A DNA stretch of 43,706 bases, taken from positions 1 to 43,706 of the IMG/VR virus record IMGVR_UViG_3300032397_000029; one strand, given 5' to 3'. The stretch's first letter is position 1, and the number at the start of each line of letters is the position of its first letter. Of this stretch, positions 7,936-34,829 are shown in pieces. The notes below the pieces were generated by a model. That model had not been told where the DNA came from, did no database searches, and saw only the letters and a program-made list of their open reading frames with translations. The position numbers and the translations under genes were made by a program. Origin of the DNA: a virus.

Positions 7936-8235
7936 ATGAGCTTTCGCATACGACCTACTCCACAAGGTTCTGTCAACGCAGGCATGAAGGTTCTCGCTGC
8001 TCCAAAGGCAGAGGTCTTCGAACACGTGCATCGAACAGATGACTACGACGACCTGTTCGAAGCTGCGAAAGAGTTAGGTGCCCCGGATCATGAAGTTGGG
8101 AGCACAACACCGACCGAGGGCAATGCAAGTGCAAGTCACTCGCATTCCGACCACGTCGAAGTCCCGATCTATCCTGATGCAATACCGTGGCCGAAGGTCA
8201 CCGCAAAGACGCCATACAAGTTGAAGGAGAAATGA
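7936..8235 (+). CDS. Small head-module protein of unknown function (99 aa)
   Basis: The product begins MSFRIRPTPQGSVNAGMKVL, has an acidic middle (DDYDDLFEAAKELGAPDHE), and a low-complexity Ser/His stretch (NASASHSHSDHVEV). It has no membrane segment and looks partly disordered. The start follows a weak GGGG-containing site, downstream of the candidate promoter. Small acidic, disordered proteins next to scaffold genes are common in phage head modules, but no specific role can be assigned. Confidence 0.7.
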   Translation: MSFRIRPTPQGSVNAGMKVLAAPKAEVFEHVHRTDDYDDLFEAAKELGAPDHEVGSTTPTEGNASASHSHSDHVEVPIYPDAIPWPKVTAKTPYKLKEK

Positions 8236-15513: not shown

Positions 15514-17709
15514 ATGAGTGGTTTCATTAGACGATTTCTCTTCGATCCGGGCAATGAGGTGCTGCTTGAGATCGAGTCCATCAACATTCTCGACCTAGAA
15601 CCGCCTGCTAGCATTCAGGGGATCGGTACAGGTACTGTGATGTTGGTAGGGGAGTTTGAAAACGGCCCGTTCAATACGCCAACAGAGGTGTCAAGCTCAA
15701 CCGATTTGAAGAACGTGTTCGGAACGCACGGCTACGCCTACGGAGGGGTGATAGCTAACAATCCTTGCGCCGTCAAGCGTCGTGCAGATGCAGCGCTTGT
15801 CGATGAGTATTGGAACGGTAACTCTATCGTGCAGCTCAACGGAAAGAAGTTCAAGCGTCTCGTGCTTGTGCGCGCGGATACGAGTACCGGGTCTGTGACG
15901 TTTACCCGTTGCGCAATGCTTACAGGTATTGCGGCATGGCGGTACGTACTTGACTCGGGGCAGACGCTAATTGTCGATAGCGGCGCCGGTGATGTGACAG
16001 CTACGTTTACTGCAATCGTAGCAGCCGTGACCGGCTCTGGTGGTACCTACCCGACGGTGTTTGCTGGTGGTGAAACGCTCACGTTGTACTGGGACGATCA
16101 ACCGCAATTCACCACGACTTTCTTGTCCAGTGACCAGACCGCCACACAGGTTGCGGCTCGCATCAATCAATATGCTGGTTGGACATTCGCCACAGTGTCT
16201 GGTGGTGAGCTTCGGCTGACTGCTCGCATCAAGGGCAATGCAAGTACGGTCGGTGTGGTGAGTGGCTCTACAGGCGTACTCACCAAGCTAGGCTTGTCGG
16301 CTGCGGTTACGCATCCGGCTCCTGGTACGTGTAACGTACAGAACATTGCAGCCGTTAGCGTATCTGAAGCTCACACGGTCTGCGTCGCAGCCGATCCGAA
16401 TCTCAAGGTCACAACAGACAGTCAATCTCGCATTCGGATGATCAACATCGGTATTCCAGGCACGGGCACATTGAAAGTCAAGAGTACTTCAACTGCAATC
16501 GCGTTTGGATTCGCTCCGTTGGATGTTGTAGTTAGTGCCGCAACTGGAGACGCAGGTATGCTATCCGCAGGCACGCGCGTGCGGAACTCCGGTGGGACCG
16601 AGTGGGTCACCATGCAGGATGTGAGCATTACGGCTGCTAGTGCGGGACCTTATACTATGAAGGTTCGCCCAGCACTCGACGACGGAACGAATGTGGGAGC
16701 TGTTGCAGGTACGATCACGACCGTATACGACGCACCAGACATTGGCGCTTTTGCATGCATCAATTACGCGCCGCTAGTGGCCGCATTGTCGGAAGCTGCA
16801 ATTGATGCCACCTACACAACAGCTTATGCCAGCACCGTCGATCTGAACTCGGTTGCAAAGGAGGTCAACATCTCCTTCTGTGCTCGCCAGTCCAACACTG
16901 TCCGTCGTATGGTAAAGTCGAATGCAATTGATGCTAGTGCGAACGGATGCTTTGGGCGGTTCGCTTGTGTTCGCGCCCCTCTTGGCATCACACGTTCGAC
17001 GGCTCGCAGTACGGCAGCTGAACCAGGAGTCGGCGCGTACAGAGACCAACGGGTAGCGTACTGTTATCCTGGGGTCAACACGACGGTACCGTCGATTGCC
17101 ACCCGAGGGACTGCAGGAGGTGCAGGCTTCACCGCAACTGGAGCTGTCGACGTGGGGGCCGATGGGTTCCTCGCCAGTTTGATGTCACAGCTTCCGCCAG
17201 AAGAGAATCCCGGACAAGAAACTCCATTCCTCACTGCAATCAACAGTGTCGAAACAAGCCCGAATGCCCAAGGCTTCACGATCATCGACTACACAAACTT
17301 CAGGTCGTCTGGCATTTGTGCGATCCGTATCGACGGAGGAACCGCGTTCTTCCAATCAGGTGTGACAAGTGTCGATCCTGCCGTGTACCCGAACTACCGA
17401 AACATCGCGCGTCGCCGGTACGCAGACATGGTGCAAGACACCATGGCTCTCCGTCTCAAGGGTTTTTCGAAGAAGCTCGCAACTGCTATGCGCCGTAAGG
17501 CAGTCAAAGGCGAGATCGTCGCTTACATGGATACGCTCAAGAACCGACAGAATAGCTACTCCTTGAGCGATTCGTCAAATACGCCAACCGAGCTCGCCAT
17601 GGGTCTCTACCGACTAGTGTTGAAGATCCGCACGCTATCCAGTTTGGATAGTATTACGCTTGAAACCATGATCGGCGAGTCGGTTATCACGACGACTGAA
17701 ACAGTCTAG
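15514..17709 (+). CDS. Tail sheath protein
   Basis: The 731-residue protein has an AGGAG site before ATG 15514. The N-terminal part contains GTGTVMLVGEFENGPFNTPT, the early sheath motif in which a new particle is described by effects such as name and start loops. The Ser/Thr/Gly-rich middle (about residues 130-400) is an insertion domain facing outside. The C-terminal domain is conserved: YTNFRSSGICAIRIDGGTAF, then YRNIARRRYADMVQDTMALR and TLSSLDSITLETMIGESV. These features are typical of contractile tail sheaths of P2 and Mu type, and sheath subunits contract to drive the tube through the envelope. It is followed directly by the tube gene, as usual. Confidence 0.9.
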   Translation: MSGFIRRFLFDPGNEVLLEIESINILDLEPPASIQGIGTGTVMLVGEFENGPFNTPTEVSSSTDLKNVFGTHGYAYGGVIANNPCAVKRRADAALVDEYWNGNSIVQLNGKKFKRLVLVRADTSTGSVTFTRCAMLTGIAAWRYVLDSGQTLIVDSGAGDVTATFTAIVAAVTGSGGTYPTVFAGGETLTLYWDDQPQFTTTFLSSDQTATQVAARINQYAGWTFATVSGGELRLTARIKGNASTVGVVSGSTGVLTKLGLSAAVTHPAPGTCNVQNIAAVSVSEAHTVCVAADPNLKVTTDSQSRIRMINIGIPGTGTLKVKSTSTAIAFGFAPLDVVVSAATGDAGMLSAGTRVRNSGGTEWVTMQDVSITAASAGPYTMKVRPALDDGTNVGAVAGTITTVYDAPDIGAFACINYAPLVAALSEAAIDATYTTAYASTVDLNSVAKEVNISFCARQSNTVRRMVKSNAIDASANGCFGRFACVRAPLGITRSTARSTAAEPGVGAYRDQRVAYCYPGVNTTVPSIATRGTAGGAGFTATGAVDVGADGFLASLMSQLPPEENPGQETPFLTAINSVETSPNAQGFTIIDYTNFRSSGICAIRIDGGTAFFQSGVTSVDPAVYPNYRNIARRRYADMVQDTMALRLKGFSKKLATAMRRKAVKGEIVAYMDTLKNRQNSYSLSDSSNTPTELAMGLYRLVLKIRTLSSLDSITLETMIGESVITTTETV

Positions 17710-17731
17710 TTGTCAAGGGAAGAAGGTCAAT

Positions 17732-18160
17732 ATGTCTCAAAGGTTGAAAGGCCAAGAAGTGCAGATTATCATCTGCAAAGCAGGTGAACCGCAGACTACT
17801 CTAACGGACATTCAGAACTTCAATGCAGAGTTTCAATCTGAAACCAAGACTCAAGGCTACCTTGGCGAGAAGTGGAATCAGGTTGATGACATCTACAATC
17901 AGACGAAGTTCGATCTCGAACTGAACCTGCATGCAACAGAATGGTTTGATTTCCATCAATCCATCCTGGACCGGCAAATGCGTGTAACCCCAGACTTACA
18001 GTTCAACATCCTGGCCGTCATGAACTTCCCGAACGGGGAGTCCCCGACCATGATGTTTGGGGACGCAAAGTTCGGAGCTACGCCTATCAACATCAGTTCC
18101 CGTGGTGACTATGTGAAGGTCAAGCTAGACGGTATGTGCGAAGTTCCGCAAAGGATCTAA
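17732..18160 (+). CDS. Tail tube protein
   Basis: GAAGAAGG before ATG 17732 is a good ribosome binding site. The 142-residue length and the LGEKWNQVDDIYNQTKFDLE segment with following LNLHATEWFDF agree with XkdM-like tube subunits. Beta segments dominate (VQIIICKAGEP, DYVKVKLDGMCEV). It forms the inner tube stacked beneath the sheath. The AAGGA in its last codons can serve as ribosome binding site of the short leader ORF that follows. Confidence 0.88.
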   Translation: MSQRLKGQEVQIIICKAGEPQTTLTDIQNFNAEFQSETKTQGYLGEKWNQVDDIYNQTKFDLELNLHATEWFDFHQSILDRQMRVTPDLQFNILAVMNFPNGESPTMMFGDAKFGATPINISSRGDYVKVKLDGMCEVPQRI

Positions 18161-18162
18161 GC

Positions 18163-18231
18163 ATGTGGACGGAGGCGCAGTCGGGTTTAGGCCCGTTTCT
18201 GGGCTCTATCGAGGTGGTCACCCGCAGCTAA
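18163..18231 (+). CDS. Candidate leader peptide (22 aa) upstream of tail chaperone
   Basis: ATG 18163 lies seven bases after AAGGA (18151-18155), a plausible ribosome binding site within the tube gene end. The frame encodes 22 residues starting MWTEAQSGLGPFLGSIE and stops at TAA 18229-18231. The stop is two bases before the sequence that can pair with the chaperone's ribosome binding site, so a terminating ribosome would cover it. It may be a regulatory leader rather than a functional peptide, or it may be untranslated. Confidence 0.4.
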   Translation: MWTEAQSGLGPFLGSIEVVTRS

Positions 18232-18281
18232 ACCTGCGCCTCCAACCTCCCCGAGAGAGCCCACCCTAACTGGAGGCGCAG
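18171..18281 (+). promoter_or_regulatory. Candidate translational switch: duplicated ribosome binding site with shared complement
   Basis: GGAGGCGCAG occurs at 18171-18180 and again at 18272-18281, where it is the ribosome binding site of the chaperone gene (ATG 18284). Its exact complement CTGCGCCTCC lies between them at 18234-18243. The complement can therefore pair with either copy; pairing with the second extends to 11 bases (18234-18244 with 18271-18281) and hides the site. A second helix, GGGCTCT (18201-18207) with AGAGCCC (18256-18262) and GAGGT (18211-18215) with ACCTC (18245-18249), interleaves with these and would make a pseudoknot. The pairing is seen directly; switching is inferred. 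Confidence 0.6.
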
Positions 18282-18283
18282 TA

Positions 18284-18877
18284 ATGAACGCAGCAGCACA
18301 ACGGCAGAGGGGTAAACCTGATACGTTTGCCGACGCCGTCCGAGCGACGGTATCTACCAATCTCACTCTCGAAGAGAAGGCACTCTTAGGCGAAGTTGGC
18401 CCAGAATCCAGCGACGCTGTAGAACCCATTCTGGCAATCGACGATGTCGAACCGCGGCCGCACGGAACGCATCCAGCTTGGGTTGTCGTGCCCCCAAATC
18501 TTGCCATGCCACCCGAGGTGCTTGTCACATACGTACGCTGCAAGGCTAAGCTCACTCGAATTCCAAGCAAGGGAGATCGTAGCATCATCATATGGGGGCT
18601 CACTGCGTCTGAAGAGATGGTGTCCCTTAAGCGGTGTATGGGCGAAAACCTTCGTTCGGTGTCCGAGATGACGAAAATGACTATTCGGGCAATCGACGGT
18701 GTGAAAGTTGATTGGTCGGGGAGGCCCGGGCCAGGAAATGTCAACACGTTCTGGGATGAGATCGGACCGGCTTATCGGCAACAGCTCATCAATGTGTATC
18801 TCAAGACGCATGCTCTAAGTTCGGAGGACCAAGCCGATTTTTTCGTCAATTGTTTGCATATCGAGGACGTCTCTTAG
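18284..18877 (+). CDS. Tail assembly chaperone, short (unshifted) product
   Basis: The 197-residue product lies between tube and tape measure genes, where tail assembly chaperones (lambda gpG analogues) are found. Its N-terminus (MNAAAQRQRGKPDTFADAVR) is charged; the domain near residues 60-150 contains PPEVLVTYVRCKAKL and WGLTASEEMVSLKRCMGENL. Near the C-terminus it has the expected helical end before a slippery heptamer at 18838-18844. Ribosomes that do not shift end at TAG 18875-18877. The chaperone coats the tape measure during tail assembly and is not expected in virions. Confidence 0.85.
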   Translation: MNAAAQRQRGKPDTFADAVRATVSTNLTLEEKALLGEVGPESSDAVEPILAIDDVEPRPHGTHPAWVVVPPNLAMPPEVLVTYVRCKAKLTRIPSKGDRSIIIWGLTASEEMVSLKRCMGENLRSVSEMTKMTIRAIDGVKVDWSGRPGPGNVNTFWDEIGPAYRQQLINVYLKTHALSSEDQADFFVNCLHIEDVS

Positions 18878-19173
18878 CCCGCGAGGGCTGGGAGCCCTTC
18901 GATTTGTACGAGCACTACGAGGCGTGCAAGACGCTCCTAGTCGCTCAAATCTACGGTGAGCCGGCACCTGCCTGGCATTTGATAGAGTTCGATGTGGAAG
19001 ATCGGGTGAAGGCTAGAATGCGGCAGAAGATGGCACTATCAAGGTACGGACGTGTGGACTTCTTCGGATGGAATCACCGACCTGTTGCGGAGTTGGATGC
19101 CGCAACTGCCGTACTAACTGAAATGTTGGAAAACGAGGACGCTGTACCTGGATGGAACGAACGCAATGGCTGA
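18284..19173 (+). CDS. Tail assembly chaperone, -1 frameshift product (gpGT-like, about 296 aa)
   Basis: A -1 shift at TTTTTTC joins the first 187 codons to a downstream frame without its own start site. The joined sequence reads smoothly through the junction: EDQADFF then RQLFAYRGRLLAREGWEPF. The T part continues to NERNG at 19173 and contains a YEHYEACKTLLVAQIYGEP segment. This matches the lambda G/GT layout, in which a minority fusion recruits the tape measure and tube. The start of the downstream part at base 18844 is set by the slip site. The tape measure start overlaps its end by eight bases. Confidence 0.85.
18838..18844 (+). promoter_or_regulatory. -1 ribosomal frameshift slippery site TTTTTTC
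   Basis: In the zero frame the codons are GAT TTT TTC, so the heptamer T TTT TTC fits the X XXY YYZ rule. Slipping gives TTT TTT then CGT, leading into the downstream frame. A stem AGCCC (18876-18880)-GCGA-GGGCT (18885-18889), or the alternative GGGCT (18885-18889)-GGG-AGCCC (18893-18897), lies 31 or more bases downstream, farther than usual for a stimulator. Confidence 0.85.
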
Positions 19174-33347: not shown

Positions 33348-34010
33348 ATGCCGCGAAAGTACCTAATCAACTCAACGCGGTTGGGGACGCAGTTACACTA
33401 CGCAGGTACGTCGTTCGACACAGTGTTGGAGGCGACTATCATCGAACAGATGGTGAGCTGCGGAGCCGTTCTCGTTGACTCAACACCGGAGGTTCTTTCT
33501 GCTGCAGCTAAAGCAGAAATTCTACGCGAACAAGGTGCTGAACCGTACATGTGCGATGCCGTAATGATCTCGGCATGCGACAACTCAGACACCGTCACGT
33601 ACAACGATGACAAAGTTGGCCCCCCAACAGGGGCAGAGACAGTACAGGAAGTCGTCGATTGGATCAAGACTCACATGTCACCTGGTGGCATGGAGCACGC
33701 AATTGTCGACATTACGTGGGCGGATGTTGCGGTAGGTGTAAAGAACATTGACACAATACCCGTGGGAGTCTTAGTAGAATCGGTATTTGTGGAAGTTCTA
33801 ACACCGTTCGACGGTGCAACAGAAATCAGCATAGGGACGGCTGCAAACCATCAAGAGTTGATGGCCGTCATTGAGAACGATCCGACACAAGCAAACAAGT
33901 ACGGAACGGCATGCAACAAGACATGGCCTGTTGACACGCCAATCAAGGTGTACTTCCCGACGGGAACTCCGTCGGCAGGTTCGGCACGTGTAACGGTGCT
34001 ATTTTCGTAG
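33348..34010 (+). CDS. Structural protein with C-terminal beta domain (220 aa)
   Basis: The N-terminal region (MPRKYLINSTRLGTQLHYAG) may form a small helical domain. From about residue 115 the sequence is beta-rich, with SVFVEVLTPFDGATEISIGT, a VIENDPTQANKYGT turn and RVTVLFS at the end. The second half resembles the end of the next gene product, sharing the ENDP-x-x-A-x-x-Y turn. It appears to be an exposed virion or fibre-associated protein. The start has GAGG just upstream and lies 30 bases after the Trp-rich gene. Confidence 0.7.
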   Translation: MPRKYLINSTRLGTQLHYAGTSFDTVLEATIIEQMVSCGAVLVDSTPEVLSAAAKAEILREQGAEPYMCDAVMISACDNSDTVTYNDDKVGPPTGAETVQEVVDWIKTHMSPGGMEHAIVDITWADVAVGVKNIDTIPVGVLVESVFVEVLTPFDGATEISIGTAANHQELMAVIENDPTQANKYGTACNKTWPVDTPIKVYFPTGTPSAGSARVTVLFS

Positions 34011-34025
34011 GAAGGAACAGGAACA

Positions 34026-34829
34026 ATGGGTCTCTATCACAGCATTCTCGGAACAATTCAATCGTACTTTCACATCGGTGGGCCGCAAGGCCCCCAGCTT
34101 CGCAATTCTAGCGGAGCTATTCAAGCGCGTACTGCAAACAACGGTGCGTATGCTCACATGGAAGTGCTGCGAGCGTCTGGTGCTGACGACGCGTCCACTT
34201 ACCTCGATTTGAAGGAACGCGCCTTCCTGATCGAGTTTAGTTTTGATGGCGCAGATGCCCCCGATCCGGCTGACAACACAGGGAAGTACGGCTTCTGTCA
34301 CACGACAGGTGGGGGCTTTACGGCTGGCAAGATCTACTTTGATGATGCCTCAACCCTTGGTGAATGTACGGTCTACAAGACTAGCATCTTGTTGTCCACG
34401 GCAGTCGTAGCAGGAACGGTCAGTCTGATCGCCAATGGCGTGTACACGGCACAGACTGGGTCTGCGCCGTTCACATGGACGTTGAAAGGTGATGGAACAC
34501 CTAGCTTTTCTGGCATCATTCGGGCAATCAAGCTGACATTGTCAACGATCGACGTGGACTCCACAACGGTGATCCCGACTAGCGCAAAGATTATGCGCGT
34601 CTACACGAATATCACATCGCCGTATACAGCTGATACGACCATCACTGTAACTGTGGATGCACAGACGGTGCAAGCTGCCACCGAGAACGATCCAGAATCG
34701 GCAGGAATCTACCTCAACGATCCGATGCTTACCATCTCAAGTGGAGCAGTGCTACATGTTGACATCGTCGGTGCTGAAACTGGCGACGGCGAAGTCGTAG
34801 TCGAGTACTATTCGGCGTTCTTGGCGTAA
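34026..34829 (+). CDS. Fibre-associated protein with shared N-terminal module (267 aa)
   Basis: A strong GGAAGGAACAGG region precedes ATG 34026. The N-terminal 50 residues (MGLYHSILGTIQSYFHIGGP, then QGPQLRNSSGAIQARTAN) resemble the start of the 670-residue fibre at 41102. The remainder is beta-rich with VYTNITSPYTADTTITVTVD and the ENDPESAGIY turn shared with the previous gene. The common N-terminus probably docks the protein to a shared baseplate partner. No enzymatic motif is seen. Confidence 0.7.
   Translation: MGLYHSILGTIQSYFHIGGPQGPQLRNSSGAIQARTANNGAYAHMEVLRASGADDASTYLDLKERAFLIEFSFDGADAPDPADNTGKYGFCHTTGGGFTAGKIYFDDASTLGECTVYKTSILLSTAVVAGTVSLIANGVYTAQTGSAPFTWTLKGDGTPSFSGIIRAIKLTLSTIDVDSTTVIPTSAKIMRVYTNITSPYTADTTITVTVDAQTVQAATENDPESAGIYLNDPMLTISSGAVLHVDIVGAETGDGEVVVEYYSAFLA

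Follow-up and report, generated by a model that had tools for sequence, protein, structure and literature searches.

A candidate RNA switch between the tail tube and tail chaperone genes of uncultured contractile-tailed phages

Between the tail tube gene and the tail assembly chaperone gene of a virus record (IMGVR_UViG_3300032397_000029) we found a set of RNA arms that probably acts in cis as a switch on translation of the chaperone. One anti-Shine-Dalgarno segment (C) can pair either with the Shine-Dalgarno (SD) sequence of the chaperone gene (A') or with an upstream copy of it past the tube stop codon (A), and both pairings cross a stem (B:B') that encloses C. Comparison of sequences establishes the competing C:A and C:A' arms, their mutual exclusivity, their conservation and their covariation, and the flanking genes are identified as well. 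We infer that C:A' lowers and A:C raises chaperone translation. The regulatory RNA family would be new, and its placement beside an upstream stop codon is unusual. The whole stretch of DNA that we analysed (43.7 kb) is referred to as the window and its features are listed in Table 1.

The window has the gene order of a contractile tail, with sheath, tube and chaperone genes followed by a long ORF. The AlphaFold2 model of the tube protein (pLDDT 86.7) matches tube proteins of contractile-tailed phages and particles. For the 0-frame product of the chaperone gene the best fold match was the HK97 tail assembly chaperone (2ob9, prob 0.94, E 0.074), which is suggestive only. The -1 frame is open for 98 aa beyond the 0-frame stop, to 19173. 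The position between the tube gene and the tape-measure position, the slippery site with its -1 extension and the weak fold match together identify the downstream gene as a tail assembly chaperone. An earlier sequence-only reading of the window had placed the arms ahead of such a gene, and the frameshift site bears this out. It is also kept in relatives: among the 12 members with the full set of arms a T6N slippery site was present in 11, and all 12 had the -1 frame extension. When isolated phages were searched at the DNA and protein levels, neither the region nor the tube had a match, and the sheath had a single, weak one (Alicyclobacillus phage MMB025). No tRNA genes were found in the whole window.

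Table 1. Features of the tube-chaperone region, in positions of the window
Feature	Position	Strand	Evidence
Sheath gene	15514-17709		phrog_23 match
Tail tube gene, 142 aa	17732-18160	+	ORF; 3' of sheath gene; AlphaFold2 model match
22-codon leader ORF, ATG 18163 to TAA 18231	18163-18231	+	present in window; not conserved
Arm A, upstream copy GGAGGCGCAG, putative antisequestor	18171-18180	+	exact repeat; conserved in 17 junctions
Arm B, 5' strand of stem enclosing C	18200-18218	+	inverted repeat; own vs swapped pairing
Arm C, anti-SD segment CTGCGCCTCCA	18234-18244	+	pairs with A or A'
Arm B', 3' strand of stem	18245-18263	+	inverted repeat; own vs swapped pairing
Arm A', TGGAGGCGCAG, includes chaperone SD	18271-18281	+	exact repeat; SD pseudoknot p 0.001
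Tail assembly chaperone, 0-frame product, 197 aa	18284-18877	+	slippery site, -1 extension, fold match
Slippery heptamer TTTTTTC for -1 frameshift	18838-18844	+	sequence
Long ORF, tape-measure position	19166-21187		gene order

The 10-mer GGAGGCGCAG occurs in the window solely at 18171-18180 and 18272-18281, and its perfect complement CTGCGCCTCC solely at 18234-18243. The full arms C and A' form 11 bp, C and A 10 bp. The repeat, its complement and both pairings had been described in the sequence-only reading, and we confirmed all the essential coordinates. The same reading judged the triple hard to explain by chance, and so it proved: when the whole window was simulated 300 times with an order-3 Markov model, we never obtained a direct 10-mer repeat with its reverse complement between the copies within 124 nt (0/300); plain direct 10-mer repeats averaged 6.35 per simulation. 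A further interleaved helix that had been suggested (18201-18207 with 18256-18262) is part of a larger inverted repeat, B:B', in which the two arms of 19 nt are 84% complementary. C:A and C:A' both cross B:B', and C:A' together with B:B' has the topology of an H-type pseudoknot. This pseudoknot over the chaperone SD reached p 0.001 in the window. The proposed fold of 18140-18300 was uninformative: the nested structure is not unusual (z -1.0), because nested folding cannot display crossing arms. The stretch 18196-18300 gave z -2.15. Among the other gene starts of the window that were tested, only 34026 (33895-34026) reached p 0.01 for an SD pseudoknot, which may be chance as about 40 starts were tested.

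We compared the element to several known classes. Rfam gave no match to the window at E<=1 and none in 12 relatives at gathering score, and a known Rfam family, riboswitches included, was rejected for want of a covariance-model match in either. An HDV-like ribozyme has a similar helix order and likewise lacks an Rfam match here. Between C and B' there is 1 nt in the window; 14 of 18 members have 1-6 nt there and the remainder 10 to 18 nt, which leaves little or no space for the hairpin P4 between the 3' strands of the crossing helices, and we rejected this class too. A search of 17700-18900 for an intrinsic terminator, a stem with a T run after it, found none on the + strand. A stimulator of the -1 frameshift would be a structure a few nt 3' of the slippery site, and was rejected because more than 550 nt separate the element from that site, on its 5' side. 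We found no paper describing such an element in the literature searched, which covered a minority of subscription journals.

A direct search with the tube found it only in near-identical contigs (99.95-99.97% over 6.4 kb). The initial tube and chaperone scans of viral contigs also gave near-identical contigs alone, and the distant relatives were reached through a scan with the sheath. The sheath scan, a tube-alignment scan and a sheath-alignment scan yielded 89 distinct tube-downstream junctions. In 17 of these, the window included, A and C occur 3' of the tube stop and a stem B:B', weak in L218, encloses C; 12 of the 17, again counting the window, carry A' at the chaperone SD. L125, an eighteenth junction, lacks A but has C and A'. 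The tube stop codon of the window is at 18158-18160 and A starts 10 nt downstream of it; across the 17 junctions A starts between -1 and +21 nt after the stop codon in 15, the exceptions being L015, with ∼380 nt before A, and L137 (+34). The core GGAGGCGC is nearly invariant across members; in L236 all three arms are changed, and in L137 A and C are changed in step. The chaperones downstream of the element are 26-62% identical to that of L023, so the element has been conserved over a long divergence. Two DNA pattern scans that made no use of proteins returned 95 and 31 stretches, and every stretch with a third copy and a strong stem was at a tube-chaperone junction. The sequence-only reading had left room for duplication of a ribosome binding site followed by coincidence; recurrence of the layout in 17 distinct junctions excludes this explanation. 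In bacterial and archaeal genomes a single distant homologue of the tube turned up; it belongs to an Armatimonadota MAG, where the junction is short and lacks the element.

Several relatives carry extra DNA or genes in the junction, which looks like an insertion hotspot. We observed an ORF of ∼170 aa without a Pfam match (L017:9072-9756), long inserts (L019:9200-9640, L015:9166-9550 and L018:9388-10010) and, in L130 after 3438, an ORF that by eye only resembles an HNH-type homing endonuclease.

Compensatory changes in relatives had been named beforehand as a check on the arms, and we detected covariation for both pairings of C and for B:B'. In the gapless arm alignment of A:C, 9 of 15 pairs were changed on both sides. 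The covariation score of A:C was 0.265 compared to 0.115 when shuffled (0/500) and at most 0.076 when slid; for C:A' it was 0.236 compared to 0.112 (0/500) and at most 0.100 when slid. The members were selected by their core sequence and not by the flanks. In the flanks of the A and A' pairings an arm formed 3.4 extra pairs with its own partner and 1.5-1.6 with swapped partners (permutation p 5e-5 for A and for A', a value that ignores shared ancestry). The B stems have no sequence in common between lineages, yet they are paired within each genome: the median score was 36 for own arms and 18.7 for swapped arms (permutation p 5e-5, ancestry again ignored). Furthermore, under neutral scoring G-U pairs outnumbered A-C mismatches in these stems by 20:7 (p 0.019, ancestry ignored), as expected if the RNA of the coding strand is the selected molecule. 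Only this count is used; a count of 32:2 on the wider group was set aside because those stems came from a scoring that favours G-U. The claim that one complement serves two mutually exclusive pairings thus holds in distant relatives. C is conserved as the partner of two competing arms in the 12 junctions with A, C and A'.

The pseudoknot extends beyond the members with an upstream copy. The B-C-B'-A' structure over the SD reached p 0.01 at 25 of 50 chaperone junctions, compared to 2 of 260 among other gene starts on those contigs, which served as controls. The test was run against shuffled upstream sequence on junctions whose gap was 60 nt or longer, and p 0.01 is the smallest value attainable. 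A hairpin stem is thus crossed by a helix to which the SD contributes one strand, the arrangement expected of an SD-sequestering H-type pseudoknot. The pairing sequences of this wider group differ wholly by lineage (TTCCTC/GAGGAA, CCTCTC/GAGAGG and CCTTTGCGG/CTGCAAAGG). A cruder analysis that compared SD complementarity across all junctions had been only marginal (p 0.04), owing to miscalled start codons and the inclusion of compact junctions, and the pseudoknot test with control gene starts supersedes it. The upstream copy A is restricted to part of the wider group and most two-arm members lack it. In the tube tree all members with A and most two-arm members fall into one supported group (42 rows), an adjoining group of 26 with mostly compact junctions is without the element, and a few two-arm members are placed in a distant group. 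Two further layouts were noticed. Within 126 nt of the tube stop (which ends at 8177) L199 has the three-arm layout with another core, GTGGAGG/CCTCCAC/GTGGAGG, for which the A arm by itself fell short of significance (p 0.13). Immediately 3' of its tube stop, L255 has another kind of upstream arm, GCACCAATG, which can pair with the anti-SD segment (p 0.004). L255 lies in a distant group of the tube tree, and its arm is possibly an independent case.

In the switch that we propose, stem B:B' would present the anti-SD segment C. With C paired to A' across B:B', the chaperone SD would be hidden and chaperone translation low, and with C paired to A, the SD copy past the tube stop, A' would be free and the chaperone translated. 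The likeliest input would be ribosomes terminating on the tube gene, which would cover or melt A. Positions -1 to +21 are within or just past the stretch covered by a terminating ribosome, and the conserved position of A near the tube stop points to tube-gene ribosomes. Occupation of A would release C to close A' and so hold the chaperone low during abundant tube synthesis; once the tube ribosomes thin out, A:C would form and the chaperone SD would open. This input and its direction are the least certain part of the model, and we rate them at somewhat under an even chance. The opposite sign of control, or a protein input, is possible. The duplex energies of C:A and C:A' are similar in size and the stronger pairing varies by lineage. 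The linker between B' and A' is short for a full B:B' stem alongside C:A', and the resulting strain may open part of B:B' in the closed state. In much of the wider group the C:A' pseudoknot occurs where there is no A, so the basic function does not require this arm. Conversely, 5 of the 17 junctions have A:C without a matching A', and in at least two of them (L017 and L019) another gene or a long insert lies between the element and the chaperone gene. A:C may hence have a second role, e.g. protecting the tube message.

We weighed four other readings of the element. It is rather unlikely that the GGAGGCGC arms and the pseudoknot are an operator to which a phage protein (tube, chaperone or another) binds and stabilises one pairing, so that the chaperone is repressed or activated. 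The core is more conserved than an SD requires, and this holds for A too, which in most members is not an SD, and the five junctions that keep A:C without A' would fit as well; gp32 of T4 offers a precedent, as it acts on the pseudoknot of its own leader (PMC3014915). However, the B stems and loops have no common sequence between lineages, and the pseudoknot of the wider group keeps its form with entirely different arm sequences, which would be unusual for a protein site. We consider it quite unlikely that C:A' sets a fixed, lower level of the chaperone and that A:C is a separate device, for instance one protecting the 3' end of the tube message. This would agree with the many two-arm members without A and with A:C lacking A' in five members. 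It does not agree with the 12 lineages in which A and A' match the same C and both arms covary, from which we conclude that the competition is maintained.

The sequence-only reading had made the leader ORF the sensor, with its translation opening or closing the chaperone SD, and such leader-peptide attenuation now appears very improbable. The ORF itself is as described, with an SD-like AAGGA of its own (18151-18155) and a stop 2 nt before C, and L218 has an ORF that uses A as its SD and also ends 2 nt before C. A comparable ORF, starting before A with its own SD and ending near C, was nevertheless seen in the window alone. Five relatives have an ATG after A at SD spacing, with ORFs of 2 to 21 codons and differing ends, and most members have no ORF of this kind. 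To go by this distribution, the leader ORF is probably not a functional part, and the position of A points instead to tube-gene ribosomes. In L013 (9065-9085) a minimal ORF, ATG CAG TAG, follows A at SD spacing and could hold a ribosome on A. A DNA-level origin without RNA function is scarcely credible: template switching can homogenise quasi-palindromes, and the extra genes in the junctions of several relatives would suit marks of an insertion hotspot, but on the coding strand G-U pairs are more frequent than A-C mismatches, the arms are located on the chaperone SD and past the tube stop codon, and the structure is lacking at control gene starts.

By analogy, the switch would work like an SD-sequestering pseudoknot with an antisequestor, and it resembles the erm attenuators in its competing arms. 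Translational attenuators of the erm/cat type need a leader peptide, and a ribosome stalls on the leader. Here as there, competing arms set the pairing of the downstream SD; we rejected membership of that class as no conserved leader ORF runs over the competing arms, and the sensor arm lies instead next to a stop codon, that of a full structural gene. The nearest phage precedent is T4 gene 32, also an mRNA leader pseudoknot upstream of the start codon that is linked to translational control. In the passages on this gene in PMC3014915, gp32 represses its own translation, and a pseudoknot 67 nt upstream of the start nucleates gp32 over an unstructured ribosome binding site. In our element, by contrast, the SD itself makes up one side of the crossing helix and has a competitor in its second copy, and protein binding is hypothetical. 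In T4 genes e, soc, 49 and I-TevI an RNA helix sequesters the SD and/or start codon, as proposed here for the chaperone SD, but the corresponding passages describe neither a crossing stem nor a second SD copy in competition (PMC3014915). The SD of the H. pylori aapA3 toxin mRNA is likewise sequestered by anti-SD segments, which form alternative structures; there, successive anti-SDs act on one SD during transcription, whereas here one anti-SD chooses between two SD copies (PMC6733600). Lambda, P2 and Mu share the order of tube, frameshifted tail chaperone and tape measure, with tube-chaperone gaps of 15, 56 and 9 nt that are shorter than the ∼120-nt element.

Long-tailed phages need the tube protein in large amounts and the tail chaperone in smaller ones. 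At this locus the control known so far is exerted by the frameshift within the chaperone gene. A conserved switch ahead of the chaperone gene would add a second, translational layer of control to the frameshift. We tentatively suggest a new phage RNA class, still doubtful in our view, in which a decoy SD copy senses ribosomes terminating on one structural gene, so that translating this gene reduces expression of the next. If true, negative translational coupling would set the ratio of tube to chaperone. The three-arm design, with one anti-SD and two SD-like partners, one of them at the upstream stop, makes such coupling between neighbouring genes directly testable, and the element would be a new family of regulatory RNA in uncultured contractile-tailed phages.
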